From assembly GCF_001434575.1 (NCBI RefSeq), contig NZ_AZDA01000140.1, positions 1-64,000 of the forward strand: a stretch of 64,000 bases of DNA, given 5' to 3'. The notes beneath the pieces are model-generated. The model made no database searches. It had not been told where the DNA came from and worked only from the letters and a program-made list of their open reading frames with translations. Position 1 is the stretch's first letter; the number at the start of each line of letters is the position of its first letter. This document shows, piece by piece, positions 8,468 to 57,556 of the stretch. A program made the position numbers and the translations under genes. Source of the DNA: Loigolactobacillus bifermentans DSM 20003 (GTDB lineage: Bacteria > Bacillota > Bacilli > Lactobacillales > Lactobacillaceae).

Positions 8468-9547
8468 TTAGCGTACCTCCTGCTCAAAATGCTTCATAAA
8501 GTCAACTAATGTGGTCACGCCGGCAATTGGCATAGCGTTATAAAGACTCGCGCGCATGCCACCCACTAAACGGTGCCCTTTTAAGTTATACAAACCCGCT
8601 TTAGTGGCTGCATCAATAAACTGGGCGTCTAAATCAGCATTGCCGGTGACAAACGGAATATTGGTTAAGGACCGATAGGCCGGTGCCACTGGGGCGGTAA
8701 ATAAATCGGATTGATCTAAGTAATCGTATAAGATCTTCGCTTTGGCTTGGTTGATCTGGGTCATGGCTGGCACCCCGCCTAACTGTTCGAGCCAATCAAA
8801 CACCAATCCGGCAGTATAAATCGCAAAAACAGGCGGTGTATTGTACAACGAGCCTTTATCCGCTTGCAATTGATAGTCCAACATCGCTGGTAAATTGGGC
8901 ACCTTGCCAATTAAATCGTCGCGGACGATCACCACCGTTAACCCTGCTGGCCCAATGTTCTTCTGCGCCCCAGCGTAGATCAAACCAAAGTCTGCCACTC
9001 GATAAGGTTGTGCTAAAATATTAGAAGACATGTCACCCACTAAAATATTATCGCCAACAGCTGGCAAGTCGAAGAACGTGGTCCCTTCAATGGTGTTATT
9101 CGTGGTAATATGAACGTAATCATAGTGGTCGGTAACAGCTGGCACCGTTGGGATCACGCGGTTTTGTTGCGCTTGCGAGCTGGCCAAAACTGTGGTGGTC
9201 ACGTGAGGCAACTTGTCGGCTTCAGCCTTGGCTTTTTTCGACCAGTTCCCCGTATCTACAAAAGCCACCTTGCCTGTGGTGGCAAGGTTTAGCGGCACCG
9301 CGTGAAATTGTAAACTGGCGCCACCTTGTAAAAAGAGCACTTTATAATTATCAGGAATCGCCATTAACCGTCGCAAACCGGCTTCTGCGCGGTCAATAAT
9401 ATCTTGGAACAAGGCGGAACGATGACTGATCTCCATTACGCTCATGCCGGTTTGCCGGTATGATAAAAGTTCATCCTGCACTTGCTGTAACACCGGCTGC
9501 GGTAACACCGCTGGCCCGGCTGCGAAATTGTAAACTGTTTTCATCAT
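8468..9547 (-). CDS. serC: Phosphoserine aminotransferase
   Basis: PLP enzyme converting 3-phosphohydroxypyruvate and glutamate to phosphoserine. The 359-residue product begins [15 protein letters not shown], carries the PLP-lysine segment [12 protein letters not shown] near residue 193 and ends with the substrate-binding part [18 protein letters not shown]. Length matches the family (about 360). Two ATG codons are in tandem at the start. The SD AGGAGGA is contributed by the last unit of the repeat array at 9551-9795, whose anti-SD strand could occlude it. It leads the serC-serA operon. serB was not seen nearby. Confidence 0.95.
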
Positions 9548-9550
9548 CGT

Positions 9551-9795
9551 TCCTCCTAAGTAATTTAAGGGCTATTTTGCTTCCGCAAAATCTTATTTCG
9601 GAGGATGTCCATTCCATCGGGCGAAAAGCGCCACGGTGGAAACATGGCTCCTCCTAAGTAATTTAAGGGCTATTTTGCTTCCGCAAAATCTTATTTCGGA
9701 GGATGTCCATTCCATCGGGCGAAAAGCGCCACGGTGGAAACATGGCTCCTCCTAAGTAATTTAAGAACTATTTTGCTTCCGCAAAATCTTATTTC
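9551..9795 (-). repeat. Array A of the SD-hairpin repeat: two identical 98-bp units plus a partial unit, leader of serC
   Basis: Read on the minus strand, each unit is: SD (TTAGGAGGA), GCC, ATG, hairpin P1, GGACATCCTCCG (anti-SD), AAAT, hairpin ATTTTGC-GGAA-GCAAAAT, a short spacer, then the next SD. Unit ATGs lie at 9743-9741 and 9645-9643, exactly 98 bp apart, and the units are identical. A distal partial copy (second hairpin plus SD) ends at 9795. The last SD (9557-9551) is that of serC, 3 nt before its ATG. TCCTCC at 9605-9600 can pair perfectly with this SD. Each ATG opens a 26-codon frame (9743-9663 and 9645-9565) that stops about 6 nt before the following SD. Confidence 0.85.
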
Positions 9796-22781: not shown

Positions 22782-23463
22782 GGAAATCCCTCCGATTCAT
22801 GGCCTGTTGAATATGAGGCAACGTCACGTCTTGTGTTTGGGTGAAAACCACGTCAGCCGCACGCAATTCGCATTTGTCACCAATACCGATAGCCACTTCG
22901 TCAGCGGCCTTAATGCCGGCGACTCCAGCTGCCGCATCTTCAAACCCCATACAAGCAGCTGGCGGCAAATGAATGCTAGCGGCCGCTTTCACGAAAATCT
23001 CTGGATCAGGCTTGCCGTGGGTTAACGTTGCGGGATCCACCACATTTGGGAAATAAGCCGTTAGCCCTAAATTTTGTAACACCCGCGGCGCATTTTTGGA
23101 AGCCGACGCCAGTGCAATACGATAGCCTTTTTGGGCTAAATCATCTAACAAGGCTTGCATCCCAGGCAAAATATCGGCTGGTGTCAAGGTGTCTACTAAG
23201 GCCAAATAATGCTGATTCTTTTCCGTCGCCAGTCGCTCTTTTTCACCTTGGGTAAAATTCTGTTCCAAATGACCGTGTTTCAAAATCAGCTCCAACGCTG
23301 CCATGCGGCCAATCCCTTTCAGACTTTCTTGTAACGCGTCATCCCAACTGATGCCCACTTGATCAGCGATTTGCCGCCAAGCCTGGGTATGAAAGCGCGC
23401 CGTATCGGTAATCACACCATCAAGATCAAAGATGGCGCCTTTAATTTGATTAAATGTTGTCAT
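22774..23463 (-). CDS. pgmB: Beta-phosphoglucomutase
   Basis: Converts beta-glucose 1-phosphate to glucose 6-phosphate. The 229-residue HAD protein has nucleophile Asp13 and acid/base Asp15 in AIFDLDGVITDTARFH, the cap segment SLKGIGRMAAL (in place of the usual KGVSRxxSL), LASASKNAP and GFEDAAAGV. Beta-glucose 1-phosphate is the product of inverting GH65 phosphorylases, and a GH65 gene lies just upstream, so the pair forms a disaccharide phosphorolysis route. Its SD is the end of repeat array B (23472-23617). Confidence 0.93.
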   Translation of the reverse strand: MTTFNQIKGAIFDLDGVITDTARFHTQAWRQIADQVGISWDDALQESLKGIGRMAALELILKHGHLEQNFTQGEKERLATEKNQHYLALVDTLTPADILPGMQALLDDLAQKGYRIALASASKNAPRVLQNLGLTAYFPNVVDPATLTHGKPDPEIFVKAAASIHLPPAACMGFEDAAAGVAGIKAADEVAIGIGDKCELRAADVVFTQTQDVTLPHIQQAMNRRDFHA

Positions 23464-23471
23464 AAATTCGA

Positions 23472-23617
23472 CCTCCTAAATGCTCTACTGACTATTTTGC
23501 TACCGCAAAATCCTATTTCGGAGGATGTCCATTCCCTCGGGCGAAGTGCACCACGAGGGAAACATGGCTCCTCCTAAGTTCTCTAAGGGCTATTTTGCCA
23601 ACGCAAAATCTTATTTC
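23472..23617 (-). repeat. Array B of the SD-hairpin repeat: one full unit plus a partial unit, before pgmB
   Basis: Same architecture as the serC leader. The distal partial copy (second hairpin with loop GTTG, then TTAGGAGGAGCC) leads to an ATG at 23565-23563. P1 arms are CCCTCG and CGAGGG (perfect). The anti-SD TCCTCC (about 23525-23520) is perfectly complementary to the GGAGG of pgmB (23476-23472). Hairpin 2 has loop GGTA. The ATG opens a 21-codon frame ending at TAG (23502-23500). It lies within the GH65-pgmB operon and fills most of the intergenic gap. Confidence 0.82.
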
Positions 23618-23638
23618 AAAAGACTGGCCAGTCCCTTC

Positions 23639-26389
23639 TTATTGCACGTACGTCACCGTCTGCTGTTCATTGGCCTTGAGGGGCACCATTTTAGTCCCCA
23701 CTTGCACCGTTAAGTCTTGATCTGCAGTAAGTTTTAACTGGTGGTGCGCTACTTGAACCGCAATGCCAGTGCCTTGAAATTGTAGGTGATACTGGACGTT
23801 TCGCCAACGACTGGGCAACCGGGGTTCAAACCGGACCACGTCGCCTAAAAGAGCCACACCGCCGTACAAGGTCATTTCAACATTTAAAACCGCGCCCATC
23901 ACGCCTAAATGAATCCCTTCAGCAGTGGTGCCGCCTTGAATGTCATAGTAATCAGAAAACAGGGCCTGGTGAAATAACTTCCAAGACTGATCTCGCCGTC
24001 CAACCAACCGGGTTAAAACGGCGTAAACAATGCGTGACAACGTGGAGCCGTGGGTGGTGCGGTCTAAATAAAACTGCAAATTCTGGGCAAAATAATCTTT
24101 TGGCAATTGATAGCCCATATCCTGGATCACCCCGTCTAAGGTCGCCCGATCTAACAGGAAAAAGGCCATTAGCGTATCGGCCTGTTTGGCCACTTGATAC
24201 GCATCTGGTGTTTTGCCTTCCGCTTTTAAGATCCGATCTAGTCGGGAAATGTCACCGTACTTTTGCCGGTAGCTGTCAAAGTTAAGGGTGGGTAATGCAA
24301 AGTAACCTGCAAACTGACCAATAATGCCTTGGTCATTGATCACCAGCGTCAGCCGCCGTCGAACCTTATTCAGTTGCTCTAAATCGGTTAACGCAAAATC
24401 GGCCTTTTCAGCAGCCGCTTGGAACACCGCGTCGCTGAATTGCGGCCGTAACTGACCAATCAGTTTAAACAGCCAAGCCACCATCATGTTGGTGTACGCA
24501 TTATCCGTTAGCCCTTCTGCATCACGGTTTGGGTAGCGTTCATGAAATTCATCTGGGCCCATCACCCCAGCAATATGATACCGCTTGGTTTCGGCATCAT
24601 ATTGGGTCATACTTAACCAGAACTTGGCAATCGACAGCAGCATTTCCAAACCATAATCCTGCATAAAAGCCTGATCTTGGTTTAAATGCCAGTACAACCA
24701 CACATTGTAAGCCACCGCTAAAGACACATGTCGTTGCCGCCGACTTTCATCCGGATCCCATTGATTGGTTAACGGGTTTAAATGGACAAATTGCGACTGC
24801 TCATCGCCTTTCATCCCAGACTGCCACGGGTACATGGCACCTTGATAGCCTTCACTGGCCGCATAAGTGCGAGCAGCGTCTAACCGGCGGTAACGGTAAC
24901 ACAACATGGCGCGAGCGATTTTAGGCGCCTGCATGGCATAAAACGGCATGACAAACATTTCATCCCAAAAAACATGGCCCCGATAGGCTTCGCCGTGCAA
25001 CCCACGGGCGCCCACTGACGCATCCAACTGATCAGACGCCAGCGCAGTGCCGGTGACAAACAAATGAAACACATTAACACGGCTAAGTTTTTGACTAATG
25101 GTATCGCCAGCAATTTTAAAATCAGCTTGTTGCCACACTTTTTGGTAAAATGCAGCGGTGCTTTGGGCCGTATCTGCATAAGAACTGGCACTTAATTCCG
25201 CCCACGTTAGGTCCTCTAGCGCAGACCGTTCACTTTCACGACTGGTAAAAATCGTCACATTTTTATCAACCATGTAAGTCTGACCTGGCTGAACCTCTAA
25301 ATCAACGGTTTGCTTTAACGACTTGGCTGCCGTGGTGGTCACCACCTGATTGGTAACATCCTGCTGCGGTGAGGTCAGCTGACTGCCGATCACAAACTGC
25401 ACGTTAGATGTTTTTGTGGTCCCCGTTAGCAACGCTTGATTGGCGGCACTGGCCATACCGGTGACCTCAAAATGATGCTGATCAAATTGGGCATAGCGCG
25501 CCACATTGCCATTGATCACACTCCCATCAATGGTGGCAGTCACTTGCAAACTGCCCGCAAAGTTCAAAGGGGTCACAGCGTAACGAATGGTAAACCGATG
25601 CCAATTGTGCATATCCGCCACTTTCGTCGCCTGAACCATTAATTGATGGCCCGTACTCAAGCCCACCATTAAGGTGGTGGTTAGCTGCCCCGTTTTCAGA
25701 TCTAGGCTGCGGTAAATATCCCGAATATTGCGCTGCTGGATCTTAAATGGGTTCTCGTGATCGATACCCACGGCCAGCGCCTGCGCATTGGGTAAATTCA
25801 CCAGATCCTCATTGACCACTTCCCGGCCGTTGATCGTGGTGGTATTTTGATTGTAGACCCCAGCCACATACAGCCCTGGGTAGTTGTCCGCATCGGCCTG
25901 GGCCTCTACATAAGCCCCACGTAAGCCTAAAAAGCCGTTGCCAATGGTCAACATGGCTTCCTGACCGTAATTGCGCTTGCCTTGATATTGGCCGTAATAA
26001 TCCAAATGCCAACTGTTAGCCGCCTGCTTTTGTTGCAACGCTTTGGCCAGCCCAATTTGCTTAATCGTCGGTAACGCTAATACCGGCACGTTAAACATGT
26101 TAGTCAGTGCAAGCCCAATATCAATCCGCTGGTGATGAAGCCCCACGATCGTATCCGAAAAAGGGTACTGCAATGGATTTTCAATCACAATGGCGTCAAA
26201 CTGAATGCCGACTAACTTCACCCGAATGTTCTCAAGATTTTCGCCAATCGTCTGATCGGCATCGTAGTTCACCATGATCTGTTGTGGCTGCGCGTCCACC
26301 TGATTGGCCGTAAAACTCATCTCGATTGCATCATCCATAATCTTCAAGGAAACTGTCTTCAACTCAATCTTCCTCTCTTTTATTTTCAT
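23639..26389 (-). CDS. Glycoside hydrolase family 65 disaccharide phosphorylase
   Basis: A 916-residue GH65 enzyme (maltose, trehalose, kojibiose or nigerose phosphorylase type) that splits a glucosyl disaccharide with phosphate into beta-glucose 1-phosphate and a sugar. The beta-sandwich begins near residue 130 (YYGQYQGKRNYGQEAMLTIGNGFLGLRGAY). The catalytic (alpha/alpha)6 barrel holds the general acid Glu614 in GVMGPDEFHE, and the phosphate-site region TTAEGIHLGVMG is near residue 820. The first roughly 125 residues are an extension not found in the approximately 750-residue maltose phosphorylases. The ATG at 26389 has AAGGGA 5 nt upstream. A TTG nine codons later has a better SD (AGAGGAAG). 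Substrate is not decidable by eye. pgmB downstream supports phosphorolysis. Confidence 0.88.
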   Translation of the reverse strand: MKIKERKIELKTVSLKIMDDAIEMSFTANQVDAQPQQIMVNYDADQTIGENLENIRVKLVGIQFDAIVIENPLQYPFSDTIVGLHHQRIDIGLALTNMFNVPVLALPTIKQIGLAKALQQKQAANSWHLDYYGQYQGKRNYGQEAMLTIGNGFLGLRGAYVEAQADADNYPGLYVAGVYNQNTTTINGREVVNEDLVNLPNAQALAVGIDHENPFKIQQRNIRDIYRSLDLKTGQLTTTLMVGLSTGHQLMVQATKVADMHNWHRFTIRYAVTPLNFAGSLQVTATIDGSVINGNVARYAQFDQHHFEVTGMASAANQALLTGTTKTSNVQFVIGSQLTSPQQDVTNQVVTTTAAKSLKQTVDLEVQPGQTYMVDKNVTIFTSRESERSALEDLTWAELSASSYADTAQSTAAFYQKVWQQADFKIAGDTISQKLSRVNVFHLFVTGTALASDQLDASVGARGLHGEAYRGHVFWDEMFVMPFYAMQAPKIARAMLCYRYRRLDAARTYAASEGYQGAMYPWQSGMKGDEQSQFVHLNPLTNQWDPDESRRQRHVSLAVAYNVWLYWHLNQDQAFMQDYGLEMLLSIAKFWLSMTQYDAETKRYHIAGVMGPDEFHERYPNRDAEGLTDNAYTNMMVAWLFKLIGQLRPQFSDAVFQAAAEKADFALTDLEQLNKVRRRLTLVINDQGIIGQFAGYFALPTLNFDSYRQKYGDISRLDRILKAEGKTPDAYQVAKQADTLMAFFLLDRATLDGVIQDMGYQLPKDYFAQNLQFYLDRTTHGSTLSRIVYAVLTRLVGRRDQSWKLFHQALFSDYYDIQGGTTAEGIHLGVMGAVLNVEMTLYGGVALLGDVVRFEPRLPSRWRNVQYHLQFQGTGIAVQVAHHQLKLTADQDLTVQVGTKMVPLKANEQQTVTYVQ

Positions 26390-27845: not shown

Positions 27846-30800
27846 TTAGTCGGCTTTAGGGGCAATAACCCCTTTTTTAATGATCAATGGCAAGATAAAG
27901 ATTGCGGCAAAGACAAATAAGATAAAGGTGCTGAACGCTGGTCCAGTGGCTAAGTTGTTTAAGGCATAATTCAGACCGTTTAACAAGTAAGTCCCTGGTA
28001 AAATGGCGCTTAAGCCTTGGTATAACCCAGACAACATATCGCCTGGCAATAAGCCACCTGAAATGATCAATTGGACAAAGAGAATGGCCAAGGTTGCCAA
28101 AACGCCCAACGTACCCCACCAACGATCGAAACTGAATACGATCAAGGTAAAGACGGCGCTACCTAAGATCAAGAAACCAAGGTAAGCAACAGGGTTCGCC
28201 ATGCTAACGCCCATTAAGGCGGTGACAACGGCGATACCAATGGCCTGTAAGACCACTGCAGCCCCAACATAACCTAATTTATTGGTTAATGGTTGCGCTT
28301 GGAAACTGTTGCTGTAACGGTTAAAGCCTAATTCCGTTAAAACAGCCCCAATGAATAAGACCATAAAGATCACAAGTGGTGCTAAAACAGACATTAACGG
28401 CTTGTTCAAGTTGTCCGCTTGCGTTGAATTCTTAACCGGTGAAACAAAGTGATTCACGTTGGCCGTGCTGGTATTCAAGCCACTGACTTGCTTGGCACCA
28501 TCCGCTAACTTGCTGTTTAACGTGGTCACCCCTGCGCCAACTTGACTTAACCCAGATTGCACTTGGTTTGAGCCATCTGCTAATTGGCTGGCCCCTGATT
28601 GGGCTTGATCGGCCCCATCGGCTAATTGACCAGCACCACTGACTAATTTACTGCTGTTGGCGGTTAATTGACTGCCACCGGCAACCACTTGGTCAGAGCC
28701 ACTGACCAGTTGATTGACCCCACTGACTAAAGCAGGCACTTTGCCATTCAGTTGGCCTAACCCAGTTGCTAACTGGCCGGCACCGCTGACTAATTGGCTG
28801 GAAGCACTGGTTAACTGACTACCACCGCTGGTTAATTGACCAGACGCACTGTTCAATTGGCTGGCGCCACTGTTTAATTGACCTTCAGCACTAAATAATT
28901 GACTGGAAGCACTGGTCAAAGCAGGTGTATTGGCATTTAATGTGCTGGCACCGCTGGCGGCTGTATCCACACCGCTGGTATACTGTTGGATCCCAGCAAC
29001 AAGTTGGCCGATCTGGCTACTAAAGTTAGACTTGTTAATCGTGGCATTGATCGTGGCTTCACTGGATAAATCAACGCCAGAACCATTCACACTACTATTT
29101 AATTGAGTGGCAATGTTGGCTGATTTAGCTGAAGCTGCTTGTAACTGTTGCAAACTGCTGCTTAACGTGGTCATTTGTGCTGGCAACGTCTTCAGCAAGG
29201 CAACTGAATCAGATAAATTGCTGGTTTGCGTGAGTAACGTATCGGAATCATTTAACAAGGTGTTCATACCACTTAACTCTTGTTTCAAAGTGGCGACTTC
29301 GCTGTCACTCGGTAATTGGTTAATAATAGCCTTCAGACTGGTTAAATCAGGCACTTCCATACTGCCGACGCCTTTTTGTAAGGTCGTCAACGTGCTGCTA
29401 ATGCCGCCTAAGTTATTATTAATATTTTGATTCCCGCTGTTCACAATGCTTTGGGCTTCTTGCTTGATCGTAGCTGACGCATCTGGATCGTCCACGATTT
29501 TTTGAGCGGTGGTGATTTCTGACCGTTGTAAGCCGGTAGCCATCCCGTTCTTCAAGCCAATTTGAACCAAAGAACTCTTAATAGTTGCTTGCGCTGACGT
29601 TAATTCAGAAGCCTTACTCATTAGATCATTGGCCGATGTTTTAGCGGTTTGTAGCCCGTCTAACAAGGTGACCATTTTATTCAATTCAGGTTCGATTGCT
29701 TTGGCTTGATCCACTTGCGTCTTCAAGGCTGCCGCTTGTTCGATCAAACTATCAAATTTCGCCGTTTCTGTACTCAACTTGCTCATATTGCTGGCATTAT
29801 CGCTTAAAGCTTCATTGACTTCATTTAAGCCAGAATTGATCTTACCATTATAAGCCGCCAGCCCTGCAATCGCAGCTGGCATTTGTTTGCCTGCGCTGGC
29901 TAAGGTGTTGGTGCCGTTGTTTAACGTACTTGAATTAGCGCTTAACGTGCTTAACCCACTGTTTAATTGGCTGACACCGCTGGTATATTGATTCACCCCA
30001 GTGGCGTACTTGTTCACACCGCTAGTATACTGGCCCACGCCATTCACGTAAGTCCCGACCCCAGTGGTATATTGACCCACACCGGTGGTATATTGGCCGA
30101 TCCCCGTGTTCAAAGTGTTTGAACCAGAGGCTAATTGTTGGACCCCACTGGCTAAAGCAGGTGTGCTACTTTGCAAGGTTTTCAGCCCTTCATTTAATTG
30201 CACGTTTCCCGCCGCCAAAGTGTCCACACCGTCAGTATACGTGATCAAACCGTCTTCTAACGTTTTACCGCCAGCTTTAAATTCAACCATTTTATCGGCT
30301 AACGTTTCTAAGTTACTGGCCACTTTTTTGTTACCGGCTAACAACTGATCCGTACCACTTTTCAGCTTCTTCGTGCCGTCATGGGCTTGGCTAACACCAG
30401 TGCCCAACTGCTTGATCGAGCTTAACATGGTTTGATCATAAGCCTGTTGCACGTTGGCAACCACTTCGGACCGTAACTTGTCCGCTACTTGACTGGTGAT
30501 CAAATGGGACGCAAAGTTGTTATGGTCTGATAACGACACATTAATTTGACTGGTCTTCGGCTTTTTGCTTAAGGCCGTCGTCGCATTTTTTGAGAAATCA
30601 CGTGGTAAGGTGACTTTCATCAAATAAGTGCCATCTTCCAGCTTTTTGTCAGCCGTTGCTTCTGAAACAAAATGCCAAGTCACTTGGTGATTGTGTTTCA
30701 GTTTCTTTTCAACACCAGTCCCTAAGGCAACCACTTTGCCTTGAAATTTTGCATTTTGATCGTTATCGACAACGGCGACATTAATGTTACTGGTACTATT

Positions 30801-30911
30801 CCGTTGTTCATATGAGACAAAGTTCATTGCAATAAATAATAATAGCAATGGAATCACGACCACTAACCCCAATAGTAGTATTTGCCGTGAATGATTCTTA
30901 ATGGTTTGCAT
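27846..30911 (-). CDS. YhgE/Pip-domain membrane protein (phage infection protein family)
   Basis: A 1021-residue protein with one N-terminal membrane helix (about residues 11-31), an extracytoplasmic region and a C-terminal block of five to six helices (about 835-1015), the YhgE/Pip layout related to ABC-2 permeases. The extracellular part carries long runs of short repeats with Gly/Ser and QL pairs (SGxxQLxSGxxQL; QYTSGVxQYxTGV) at about 225-320 and 640-790, predicted as extended coiled or helical rods. Pip is a receptor for lactococcal phages. Other members act in ESX/T7-like secretion or solvent tolerance, and the role here is unknown. It heads an operon with marR. Confidence 0.85.
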   Translation of the reverse strand: MQTIKNHSRQILLLGLVVVIPLLLLFIAMNFVSYEQRNSTSNINVAVVDNDQNAKFQGKVVALGTGVEKKLKHNHQVTWHFVSEATADKKLEDGTYLMKVTLPRDFSKNATTALSKKPKTSQINVSLSDHNNFASHLITSQVADKLRSEVVANVQQAYDQTMLSSIKQLGTGVSQAHDGTKKLKSGTDQLLAGNKKVASNLETLADKMVEFKAGGKTLEDGLITYTDGVDTLAAGNVQLNEGLKTLQSSTPALASGVQQLASGSNTLNTGIGQYTTGVGQYTTGVGTYVNGVGQYTSGVNKYATGVNQYTSGVSQLNSGLSTLSANSSTLNNGTNTLASAGKQMPAAIAGLAAYNGKINSGLNEVNEALSDNASNMSKLSTETAKFDSLIEQAAALKTQVDQAKAIEPELNKMVTLLDGLQTAKTSANDLMSKASELTSAQATIKSSLVQIGLKNGMATGLQRSEITTAQKIVDDPDASATIKQEAQSIVNSGNQNINNNLGGISSTLTTLQKGVGSMEVPDLTSLKAIINQLPSDSEVATLKQELSGMNTLLNDSDTLLTQTSNLSDSVALLKTLPAQMTTLSSSLQQLQAASAKSANIATQLNSSVNGSGVDLSSEATINATINKSNFSSQIGQLVAGIQQYTSGVDTAASGASTLNANTPALTSASSQLFSAEGQLNSGASQLNSASGQLTSGGSQLTSASSQLVSGAGQLATGLGQLNGKVPALVSGVNQLVSGSDQVVAGGSQLTANSSKLVSGAGQLADGADQAQSGASQLADGSNQVQSGLSQVGAGVTTLNSKLADGAKQVSGLNTSTANVNHFVSPVKNSTQADNLNKPLMSVLAPLVIFMVLFIGAVLTELGFNRYSNSFQAQPLTNKLGYVGAAVVLQAIGIAVVTALMGVSMANPVAYLGFLILGSAVFTLIVFSFDRWWGTLGVLATLAILFVQLIISGGLLPGDMLSGLYQGLSAILPGTYLLNGLNYALNNLATGPAFSTFILFVFAAIFILPLIIKKGVIAPKAD

Positions 30912-55160: not shown

Positions 55161-55736
55161 TTAAATATTGGCTTTTAAATAATTGTACTGCATGGCTTCT
55201 TTGACGTCGGCGGTGTCATAACCAATGGCTTCCGCAATCGCATAACTATAAGCCAACGCAGTGGCTGGACCGCGGCTGGTGATCAAATGAGCCGCTTGAT
55301 CGACAACCACCAAACCGTCCTGATACTTGGCACTGGGGGATTCAGCCTGAATTTGGTCTGACATGCCTGGGAAAACCGTGTAGTCATGACCGTCTAACAA
55401 GCCGTAACGGGAAAAAGCCGTGGGCGCAGCGCACATCGCTGCATTCCACTTACCTTGTTGGGCCCGTTGCTGCATCAGTGCCATCAGCCGGTCACTCTCA
55501 CGTAGGTTTTTGGCGCCAGTGCCACCGCCTGGAAAAATCACAATGTCATAATCCAATAAACTGTCATCTAAAACTTTGTCACAAACCAAATGCACATTGT
55601 GAGCGCTGACCACGTTGCGTTTGTCCAACGCCACCATATCGGCTTGTGCGCCTAAACGGCGTAACACGTCAATTGGGGATAACGCTTCGACTTCTTCACA
55701 ACCATTGGCAAATAAAACTGCTGCTGTTTTTGTCAT
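55161..55736 (-). CDS. DJ-1/PfpI (ThiJ)-family protein
   Basis: A 191-residue protein from the ATG at 55736. It starts TKTAAVLFANGCEEVEALSP with a conserved Glu (about residue 15), has VIFPGGGTGAKNL and the nucleophile-elbow Cys102 in AAMCAAPTAF, and ends with the family ITSRGPATALAYSYAIAEAI. Members include glyoxalase III/deglycase-type and redox-stress proteins, and the specific activity is unclear. The GAGGAGGAG SD is the 3' end of the five-copy repeat array at 55744-56240. Confidence 0.87.
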   Translation of the reverse strand: MTKTAAVLFANGCEEVEALSPIDVLRRLGAQADMVALDKRNVVSAHNVHLVCDKVLDDSLLDYDIVIFPGGGTGAKNLRESDRLMALMQQRAQQGKWNAAMCAAPTAFSRYGLLDGHDYTVFPGMSDQIQAESPSAKYQDGLVVVDQAAHLITSRGPATALAYSYAIAEAIGYDTADVKEAMQYNYLKANI

Positions 55737-55743
55737 TTTATAT

Positions 55744-56240
55744 CTCCTCCTCAAAACTTTAATGTCTATTTTGCTAACGCAAAATCTTATTTCCGTAGGA
55801 TGGCCATTCCTACGGGCGCAACCTCCCTCGTAGGAAACATGGCTCCTCCTAAATACGCTAAGGTCTATTTTGCTTTCGCAAAATCCTATTTCCGTAGGAT
55901 GTCCAGTCTTGTGGCGTCAGTTCGCACCGCAAGACACATGGCACCAGCTAAATTCTCTAATGTATCTTTGCTTCGCAAAGTTCTTATTTTCGCTGGTTGT
56001 CCAGTCTTGTGGGGTCAAACCACCCCGCAAGACACATGGCACCAGCTAAATTCTCCGATGTATCTTTGCTTCGCAAAGGTTTTATTTTCGCTGGTTGTCC
56101 AGTCTTGTGGCGTCAGCCCACACCGCAAGACACATGGCTCCTCCTCAAAACTTTAATGTCTATTTTGCTAACGCAAAGTCTCATTTCCGGAGGATGTCCA
56201 TTCCTACGGGCGCAACCTCCCTCGTAGGAAACATGGCTCC
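55744..56240 (-). repeat. Array C of the SD-hairpin repeat: five tandem units between pepC and the DJ-1 gene
   Basis: Unit ATGs (minus strand) are at 56234, 56135, 56037, 55939 and 55840, giving periods of 99, 98, 98 and 99. The first unit begins at the pepC stop (TAGGAGCCATG), and the last ends in the SD of the DJ-1 gene. Two subtypes alternate. Units 1 and 5 have P1 arms CCTACG/CGTAGG. Units 2-4 have GTCTTG/CAAGAC with an inner stem that also covaries (GGGGT/ACCCC versus GGTGT/ACGCC). Before units 3 and 4 the SD is replaced by GCTGGTG, and the matching anti-SD becomes AACCAGC. Unit 4 is a hybrid of the two subtypes. Every ATG opens a 17-codon frame with the stop at the same place (AAA TAA, TAG or TGA). 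Confidence 0.87.
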
Positions 56241-57556
56241 TATGCTAATGAATCCCAAGGTGTGATCACTGTTGGTTGGGTGGTTAAGGCTTGAATTTGA
56301 GCCGGCTCCAAATACTTCCGATCAATCACGCACTCGTAAACAAAGTCATCATACCATTCGTCGCTCATCACAAAGTAGCCTTGTTCCCCGTTTTTCTCAC
56401 CCCAGGAATTTTCCACTTTCCACTTGGTCGGTTGCTCATTGACTAAATCCACCCCAGTTAACGTCATGGCATGGGAAACGGCGCCTTCACCATACGTTAA
56501 GCGGTCGGCTTTGGACAAACTCAGGTCAATCCCAAATAATTCGGCTTGGCGGTACAGCTTGCTGTCTAACAAGCCGGCTTGGCGGTTCATTTGTTGTAGC
56601 ACATCGTTGCCAAACCAAATGCTGTCACCTGCTTGCAACTGCTTCAAGGTAGCGGCCTTCATGGTGGCGAGATCCACGTTAAAGAAGGCCACATCTGGGC
56701 CACCGATCACGTTATTTTCCATTGGCAACGTAAACAGCTGATTATAAGGCTTATTTGGTGCGTTGGTCACCACCACATAATCGGCTAAATTGCGTTTGAA
56801 ATACTTTTTGGCAAAGGCTTGTGGGGTTAAATCAGGGTCGCGGTGATACTTTTTAGCATCATCCCGGTACACAAAATCAAAACTTTCCGGTGGTGTGCCA
56901 AACGCATAACTACAAATGCGATAAACTTCTGCTAAAAACTGGCGCTTTTGATCGGCGATGCCTTGGTCACTGGCACTACTATTCGCCAATTTCCGCAACA
57001 CGATCGCGTCTTTGCGTAACTTTAGATTCAAGACTTCTGAAAAATCGTTGGTATTCTCGCTGTTAAAGGTTTCTGGCATCACGTCTTTCGGTACCAAGCC
57101 ATACTTGGCCACCAAAGCCGCCGCATTGTGGAATTGACCGCCATCGGTATCTGGCGCTGCTAACAGCCAGGCGACTAAGCGATGATCGGCAGGTAGATCG
57201 GCGGTTTCAATAATGTGTTCGTAAAACGCGTTGGCTTTTTCAAAACGGTCCCAAAAAGAAAGGTAATTTTGCGACAATTCAAAATCTTTTACGTTGTATG
57301 CTTTGGCAAAGTCATGGCGTAATGTATTTAATGTGGAAAACAGCCAACAGCGGCCGCTTTTCTTTTGATTCGACACTTTACCGGTGTCCAATTCCACTGA
57401 AAAAGTGCGGTTTAACCGACTAGCTGCCGTTGGATCTTGGCTGGTGGCCTTAATGCCGTTATTCATCACGGCCCGTTGTAAGGCCGCACTACCAGGGATA
57501 TGCGCCATTTTCTGTTGAAATTTGGCCACTGCTGCTGGTGTAATTTCATGGGTCAT
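56240..57556 (-). CDS. pepC: C1-family aminopeptidase C / bleomycin hydrolase (PepC/PepE type)
   Basis: Cytoplasmic cysteine peptidase of 438 residues. Catalytic Cys70 is in KKSGRCWLFSTLN, His in AVSHAMTLTGVDL (about 368), and Asn in WKVENSWGEKNGEQGYFVMSD (about 390). The C-terminus reaches into the active site in this family and makes PepC an aminopeptidase. Length equals that of the related endopeptidase PepE, so the PepC/PepE choice is open. Its stop codon is fused to the first unit of repeat array C. Confidence 0.9.
   Translation of the reverse strand: MTHEITPAAVAKFQQKMAHIPGSAALQRAVMNNGIKATSQDPTAASRLNRTFSVELDTGKVSNQKKSGRCWLFSTLNTLRHDFAKAYNVKDFELSQNYLSFWDRFEKANAFYEHIIETADLPADHRLVAWLLAAPDTDGGQFHNAAALVAKYGLVPKDVMPETFNSENTNDFSEVLNLKLRKDAIVLRKLANSSASDQGIADQKRQFLAEVYRICSYAFGTPPESFDFVYRDDAKKYHRDPDLTPQAFAKKYFKRNLADYVVVTNAPNKPYNQLFTLPMENNVIGGPDVAFFNVDLATMKAATLKQLQAGDSIWFGNDVLQQMNRQAGLLDSKLYRQAELFGIDLSLSKADRLTYGEGAVSHAMTLTGVDLVNEQPTKWKVENSWGEKNGEQGYFVMSDEWYDDFVYECVIDRKYLEPAQIQALTTQPTVITPWDSLA

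Follow-up and report, generated by a model that had tools for sequence, protein, structure and literature searches.

The window, a 64,000-nucleotide stretch of contig NZ_AZDA01000140.1 from Loigolactobacillus bifermentans DSM 20003, carries three arrays of one repeat unit, all on the minus strand. Each array runs head to tail with a constant period, and the eight full units are 97–99 nt each. The array in the serC leader (9551–9795) consists of two full units and one partial unit. The unit adjoining serC (9551–9648) ends in AGGAGG, which is the Shine-Dalgarno (SD) sequence of that gene (start at 9547). The second full unit (9649–9746) is nearly identical to it, and a partial unit with hairpin 2, linker and SD (9747–9795) stands at the 5′ end of the array. 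In the pgmB leader (23472–23634), one full unit (23472–23568) ends in the AGGAGG that is the SD of pgmB (start at 23463), again with a partial unit at its 5′ end (23569–23634), between pgmB and a GH65 phosphorylase gene whose stop lies at 23639. The third array (55746–56237), in the leader of a DJ-1-like gene, has five full units and abuts the stop codon of pepC (56240–57556). Given the positions of the pepC stop and of the GH65 gene, two of the three arrays sit between genes on the same strand. Gene names in the window, and those of genes downstream of other copies, were assigned from translations without a family search. The initial annotation had described units of about 98 bp at three leaders, on the coding strand and ending in gene SDs, and the period, places and strand are confirmed.

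Read in the direction of the gene, a unit begins with GCCA and continues with hairpin 1, TGG, four bases and the anti-SD, a pentamer able to pair with an SD. Some nine bases then lead into hairpin 2 (TTTTGCnnnnGCAAAA), which a linker of roughly 20 bases separates from the 3′ end. That end is usually AGGAGG(T), and in the last unit of an array it serves as the gene's SD. These parts vary within the DJ-1 array. Unit 1 (55746–55843) adjoins the gene and supplies AGGAGG as its SD. Units 2 (55844–55942) and 4 (56041–56138) are switch units: the first has GCTGG at the upstream SD position, CCTAC as anti-SD and GGAGG at the 3′ end, and the second has GGAGG, CCAGC and GCTGG. Unit 3 (55943–56040) has GCTGG upstream, CCAGC and a GCTGG end, and unit 5 (56139–56237), which starts at the pepC stop codon, ends in GGAGG. 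All three jointly changed P1 arm pairs listed in the initial annotation are present (CCCTCG/CGAGGG, CCTACG/CGTAGG and GTCTTG/CAAGAC), as is the variability of the hairpin 2 loop. It had also stated that the anti-SD changes with the SD. The pairs GGAGG/CCTCC and GCTGGT/ACCAGC do occur, the partner being the downstream SD of the same unit, but GCTGGT is found in the window only between units and is the SD of no gene there. Short tandem repeats of 21–42 bp were also seen at 28770–30031, within a gene of 1021 amino acids (27846–30911).

BLAST with one unit gave at least 78 matches in the 3.13-Mb genome of this species. Units were gathered by iterative profile search, and a covariance model (R1) was built from an alignment (A1) of 69 own-genome units, which omits 8 of the 77 collected (four of locus L061 and four others). 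At E ≤ 0.01, R1 gave at least 149 matches in the own genome and from at least 17 to at least 91 in each of the other seven Loigolactobacillus genomes, so that all eight genomes of the genus carry the element. We examined 72 distinct own-genome clusters; this count is the sum of 39 clusters and 33 places among the R1 matches listed, plus one more inside L046, minus L209 (identical to L208 in the compared stretch), and excludes one row of L047 that is an artefact of a run of N. The repeat is thus common to the serC, pgmB and DJ-1 leaders as originally noted, but it is far from confined to them, with about 72 places in this genome alone.

The covariance-model search of the Lactobacillaceae that the initial annotation had proposed gave matches in 18 of the 301 genomes sampled (8 of them from the genus) and in 5 of 40 genera at 1e-4. 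In a Lactobacillales sample searched with stricter filters at 1e-5, 1 of 395 genomes matched, and this was the own genome, for which 9 candidates were scored. L. backii carries real units (2 among 6 examined of 30 exact-pattern stretches in named genomes), and the unit on contig NZ_RHNQ01000011.1 of L. backii JCM 18665 (L117) has the same sequence as the unit at contig C13 of genome G001 (L132). There was no match in plasmid and phage collections, from which near records were possibly left out. The family was unrecognised in the initial annotation and matches nothing in Rfam: 4227 models run over the whole window gave no match at gathering score, and the two permissive matches at 55600–56400 (E = 2.4 and 4.5) are unrelated. 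In a literature search that mostly excluded subscription journals and bioRxiv, so that an earlier description is possible, we recognised neither a repeat family bearing a gene's SD nor a structured repeat family of Loigolactobacillus.

A palindromic host repeat of about 300 bp (GCCATAATGC...GCATTATGGCGCACGTTAGAGG...) provides empty and filled versions of one insertion site. The own genome contains 14 copies of it, with 21 partial matches (loci L240–L260; for example L054:4700–4960, at C15:47399–47659). Thirteen copies were classified and one (L256) was not. Eight, including L243, are empty, with ...CAGAT directly joined to the right arm. The other five are filled, with ...AGAT followed by GCCATG...AGGAGGT and then A..., and the element sits in a hairpin loop. 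In all five, the insert from GCCATG to AGGAGGT is exactly 99 nt, which is one array period. Because this precise insert includes AGGAGG, the 3′ SD is part of the element. A strict target duplication of the SD is ruled out here, since AGGAGG arrives with the element, and no duplication beyond one ambiguous T was found at this single site. The five filled copies share that site and may stem from one insertion event.

Orthologous leaders point to lineage-specific insertions. R1 detected no unit in the leaders of gyrA, plsX and yhaO in any of the seven relatives, or in the leader of serC in the six relatives where this gene was found. The only three R1 matches across these 27 loci all belong to L189, past the far end of plsX; at L189:294–606 (G005), they lie 3′ of plsX in tandem, about 114 bases apart and on the plsX strand. 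In G002, G005 and G007 the serC leader reads GGAGGAACC uninterrupted. By eye only, the serC leader of G003 (L199) seems to contain a different-looking hairpin element without an R1 match, perhaps a diverged element. It stands directly 5′ of the native GAGGAGGAACC SD, at the place that the array occupies in the own species.

The empty orthologous and paralogous sites establish that the element was inserted. They also bear on the idea of an ordinary tandem leader repeat that grew by slippage without mobility. Head-to-tail copies, a constant period and the near-identity of some neighbouring units, as at serC, are what slippage would give. Slippage alone is nevertheless refuted by the dispersal of about 72 clusters over one genome and by the empty sites. 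Hairpin 1 occurs in three sequence types, and these are mixed within arrays: L066, L036, L048 and L051 are mosaics of different hairpin types. We therefore give the slippage reading practically no credence. A metabolite riboswitch was rejected as well, since hairpin 1 has three sequence types and not one aptamer, and the downstream genes are unrelated. The initial annotation's preference for a copied or mobile module over a riboswitch is supported.

Most clusters lie at gene starts, their SD being at the distance usual for a start codon. Taking a gene as a start codon followed by an open frame of 60 amino acids or more, 58 of the 66 own-genome clusters with an SD-like 3′ end lie directly 5′ of a gene start and in gene orientation, while 479 of 4000 random positions (12%) in the same loci met this definition. 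Of the eight exceptions, four are nested in another repeat (L033/L207, L204, L208 and L215), L040 is at a broken frame, L043 lies where a contig ends, L050 is degenerate, and the last is L218. The 3′ end of cluster L203 is truncated. None of the five clusters ending in GCTGG or GCCGG (L054, L226, L227, L229 and L231) precedes a gene, and the difference between SD-ended and non-SD-ended clusters gave a Fisher p of 9e-5 (computed with 59/67). The downstream genes include gyrA, gyrB, plsX, fabF, serC, tilS, an Asp23-like gene and one for a CamS-like lipoprotein. They have no pathway in common, as the initial annotation had said of its three.

An SD-like motif, defined by a broad pattern, also stands on the other side of the element. 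Of 38 first units, 36 have it 5′ of hairpin 1, as do 16 of the 18 that have no remnant of another unit upstream; 565 of 4000 random 9-mers fit the same pattern. Insertion only behind AGGAGG is not supported by the left flanks of copies away from genes, which are TTTTTCAGAT, TTTTTTAGC, TTTTTT, GTAGCTA and TTTTAGCGGGT.

The initial annotation had proposed selection on base pairing, and covariation in A1 upholds this. The covariation score was 0.203 compared with 0.093 in shuffles, and versions slid out of register gave at most 0.083. Standard pairs filled 88.6% of cells compared with 82.1%, and 145 cells were changed on both sides compared with 52; for these three measures, 0 of 500 shuffles reached the observed value. 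The count of further pair types, one of five measures, showed no excess (33 versus 33.8 in shuffles). In relatives, 37 matches (30 distinct) scored 0.238 versus 0.091, with a bias in favour because they were aligned to the model. Hairpin 1, hairpin 2 and the helix between the anti-SD and the 3′ end are all kept by paired changes.

The anti-SD pairs over at least 4.5 of 5 bases with the downstream SD in 105 of 122 distinct own units (shuffles: mean 62, maximum 73). The 17 units below 4.5 include those with CATCC (4) and CGACG (3). Since the SD and anti-SD of a unit are copied together, the 15 cases of CCAGC/GCTGG are not 15 events, and the number of pair types is a better measure. There are seven: CCTCC/GGAGG, CCAGC/GCTGG, CCTTC/GAAGG, GCTCC or ACTCC/GGAGT, GCACC/GGTGC, CCACC/GGTGG and CCGGC/GCCGG, several of which rest on one unit each.

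Pairing of the anti-SD with the upstream SD also reached 4.5 in 66 of the 122 own units, more than in any of 1000 shuffles; this excess probably reflects the sharing of types between adjacent units of an array. Among the 69 units of A1, the anti-SD fits the downstream SD better in 26, the upstream SD better in 2 and both equally in 41. On these units the helix with the upstream SD showed no excess over shuffles, and in a further permutation test 68 of 300 permutations reached the observed value. The upstream SD is thus not supported as a covarying partner on the 69 units; given the excess in the larger set, the upstream pairing may have a role. In relatives, SD pairing was weakly above permutation with a mismatch-tolerant score (29 of 300 reach it) and gave no signal when contiguous helices were scored (397 of 1000 reach it), the pairing often having one central mismatch. 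The pairing with the SD thus stands out clearly in the own species and is partial in relatives. We also counted G-U against A-C mismatches as a test of RNA versus DNA folding. The counts were 15 to 2 in the 3′-end helix, 7 to 38 in hairpin 1 and 8 to 7 in its inner part for own units, and 21 to 9 in the hairpin 1 of relatives; this mixed result was set aside.

The position before genes and the covariation of the anti-SD with the downstream SD are both what would be expected of a dedicated cis-acting translational regulator, a module selected and spread for anti-SD:SD control of the downstream gene. Folding of the 69 units without the upstream SD adds to this, masking the gene SD with a mean downstream pairing probability of 0.84. 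However, when the same units were folded with the upstream SD, the anti-SD paired upstream with a mean probability of 0.54 and downstream with 0.24. The leader is therefore predicted to fold in two ways, and a masked gene SD is not its default state, contrary to the initial annotation. In the three window leaders, the predicted probability that the gene SD is unpaired is 0.75 for pgmB, 0.82 for the DJ-1 gene and 0.24 for serC. Over 39 cluster ends, of which two precede no gene, the mean is 0.38, compared with 0.50 for nine other genes of the window (p = 0.12). In these models, then, cluster-end SDs do not differ clearly in exposure from those of other genes, which also weighs against a dedicated regulator.

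The distribution of the helix itself is a further argument against that reading. All five clusters that end in GCTGG or GCCGG have kept the anti-SD:3′-end helix with no gene downstream, and the unit directly 5′ of the gene lacks the helix in four clusters (L210, L217, L232 and L233, with anti-SD CATCC or CGACG). The lack of a theme shared by gyrA, gyrB, plsX, fabF, serC and tilS points the same way, and we consider a dedicated regulator unlikely. A helix that is kept without a gene and without an SD means that SD masking is not the sole role of the pairing, and it was probably not the original one. For the same reason, we read the helix as part of the mobile unit itself. The initial annotation had equated the compensatory pattern with SD masking, and this is not supported in that form; its interpretation as a whole is partly supported.

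A second reading that is confined to translation makes the unit a leader-peptide attenuator, in which a unit peptide is translated from the CCATG start and opens the next SD. The ATG is kept in 63 of the 69 units, and 45 of these 63 frames are open through the anti-SD. Stops fall in the ATG frame in 21 of 69 units, though, against 25 and 17 in the other two frames; 17 of the 63 stop after four or five codons, and several copies in other genera have no ATG (e.g., L153 and L162). Small open reading frames with MFPTREVAPVGMDILRK-like peptides were set aside because they show no frame constraint. We regard a leader-peptide attenuator as very improbable.

We think it likely that the element forms a new repeat family, small, non-autonomous and mobile, whose members replace the SDs of genes and are moved by a putative mobilising enzyme. 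The family is best taken as a further kind of small repeat similar to BOX, REP or MITE elements. In Streptococcus pneumoniae, BOX elements, with the arrangement boxA-boxB(n)-boxC, are described in PMC3049150 as short structured interspersed repeats with a tandem module and predicted RNA stem-loops, and they can affect downstream genes. Our element is likewise a short structured interspersed repeat with a tandemly repeated module. Unlike BOX, it has no A/B/C layout: every unit is complete and alike, and an array repeats one module n times, the first unit being partial in some; its 3′ end is an SD at gene starts, an internal segment covaries with that end, and it matches no Rfam model. Among REP/BIME elements, REPs are 20–40 bp long and carry GTAG or CGTC tags according to PMC3733652, and our units are longer, at 98 bp. 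Like the MITE-like RUP, ERIC and Correia repeats, the element is non-autonomous and about 100 bp long; RUP measures 107 bp and occurs in 108 copies between genes, and most of the small repeats tabulated in PMC2229807 have terminal inverted repeats, several with target duplications. The element differs in its ends, GCCATG and AGGAGGT, which are not terminal inverted repeats, and in that no duplication was seen.

The order of parts within the unit resembles another kind of element. In IS608, a guide 5′ of the right-end hairpin pairs with the cleavage site, insertion occurs precisely behind a target tetranucleotide and an altered left guide redirects insertion, as set out in the sections of PMC5934647 used here. 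Our element has the same succession of internal pentamer, hairpin, linker and paired 3′ end. A sharper form of the mobile-repeat reading would therefore make it an IS200/IS605-like single-strand element, with the anti-SD as DNA guide for a putative 3′ cleavage site and the unit as minimal ends without a gene. Several observations are consistent with this. Insertion lies behind a left flank, there was no target duplication at the one tested site, and the internal segment 5′ of the subterminal hairpin pairs with the element's own 3′ end in those 105 of 122 units and in seven pentamer types, also away from genes. On the other side, the element has no internal transposase gene, a separate left guide is not visible, and no fixed motif common to the non-gene left flanks was seen. 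This sharper form is possible, in our estimate, but doubtful. We take the resemblance to IS608 as a likeness and not as membership.

The distribution of candidate enzymes also speaks against that form. A Y1_Tnp (PF01797) search of the eight genus genomes gave three matches in the own genome (two over the cut-off, in apparently broken genes) and one in G002; none was found in the other six element-bearing genomes, among them G001, G003 and G004 with at least 61 to at least 91 covariance-model matches. The Y1 loci have no element-like ends (best E 0.9). The PF01797 matches do not follow the presence of the element or its copy number across the eight genomes, and a Y1 transposase of this family is not supported as the common mobiliser. 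Loci L119–L121 (own genome, C119:54660–55017 and C85:82752–82964) contain the apparently broken IS200-like Y1 transposase genes. A reverse transcriptase as common mobiliser failed in the same way: it is not correlated with the element, and RVT_1 (PF00078) has no match in the own genome. On contig C1 of G003, the reverse-transcriptase domain has 20 matches. Many of these score identically, so they may represent an expansion of a group II intron, and one of them (C1:497381–498004) adjoins an element array.

Under the mobile-repeat reading that we prefer, the copies that survive would be those landing just behind a native SD, the 3′ end of the element restoring an SD at the right spacing. Stacking could then result from renewed insertion behind the SD-like end of a unit already present. 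In the mRNA, the anti-SD would have two possible partners, the SD 5′ of the unit and the one that the gene has newly acquired, and an occupant of the upstream site, such as a ribosome, might turn the gene SD from free to masked or back. The conserved helix would be primarily the mobile unit's own fold and secondarily a means of translation control. Where a unit directly precedes a gene, its last six bases act as the ribosome-binding site, so an insertion can reset how translation of that gene begins.

Leaders of the erm type, which act by coupling or attenuation, have an internal segment that pairs alternatively with one of two initiation sites. Our element is similar in the predicted alternative pairing of an internal segment, and it differs in having no conserved peptide frame and no pathway shared by the downstream genes.

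The two kinds of pairing could be joined in a single, more tentative proposal, which we judge to be improbable as a whole. It envisages a gene-free, guide-carrying unit with an SD as its own end. For movement, the pentamer would pair with the 3′ end in single-stranded DNA; in RNA, that pairing would form a two-way switch, and the element would rewire translation throughout the genome. If this were true, insertion would swap the ribosome-binding site without killing the gene, because the end is an SD, and guide and end would drift jointly (GGAGG, GCTGG, GAAGG, GGTGG, GGTGC, GCCGG and GGAGT).

Mobile repeats of this size are mostly regarded as neutral filler, or as elements that now and then modify the stability of an mRNA. 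The present family provides the ribosome-binding site for dozens of genes in one species, including gyrA, gyrB, plsX, fabF and serC. Copies stack in variable numbers; if the switch works, translation would be tuned by how many of them a leader carries, and this number could vary from strain to strain. With the covarying pentamer pair, the same mutations could separate RNA function from DNA mobility. With no Rfam match and a putative mobiliser, the family may also lead to a new enzyme.

A diverged subtype was seen by eye in G003 and G007 (L126, L133, L141, L142 and L166) and in G005 (L127 and L135), many of whose units start with GTAGAGCCATG. A linker CCAC just upstream, and not the anti-SD, is a possible pairing partner of its SD region, which reads GTGGAG in several units. 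Several of these copies precede gene starts. Related units with hairpins 1 and 2 and ends without an obvious SD were found in G002, G005, G006, G245 and G063 (L128, L129, L136, L137, L143, L144, L151, L157 and L160), with cores like GGACAACGTCCGGAACAT and GATTTTCGGTACGAAAATC. Some of these lie within larger palindromic intergenic repeats.
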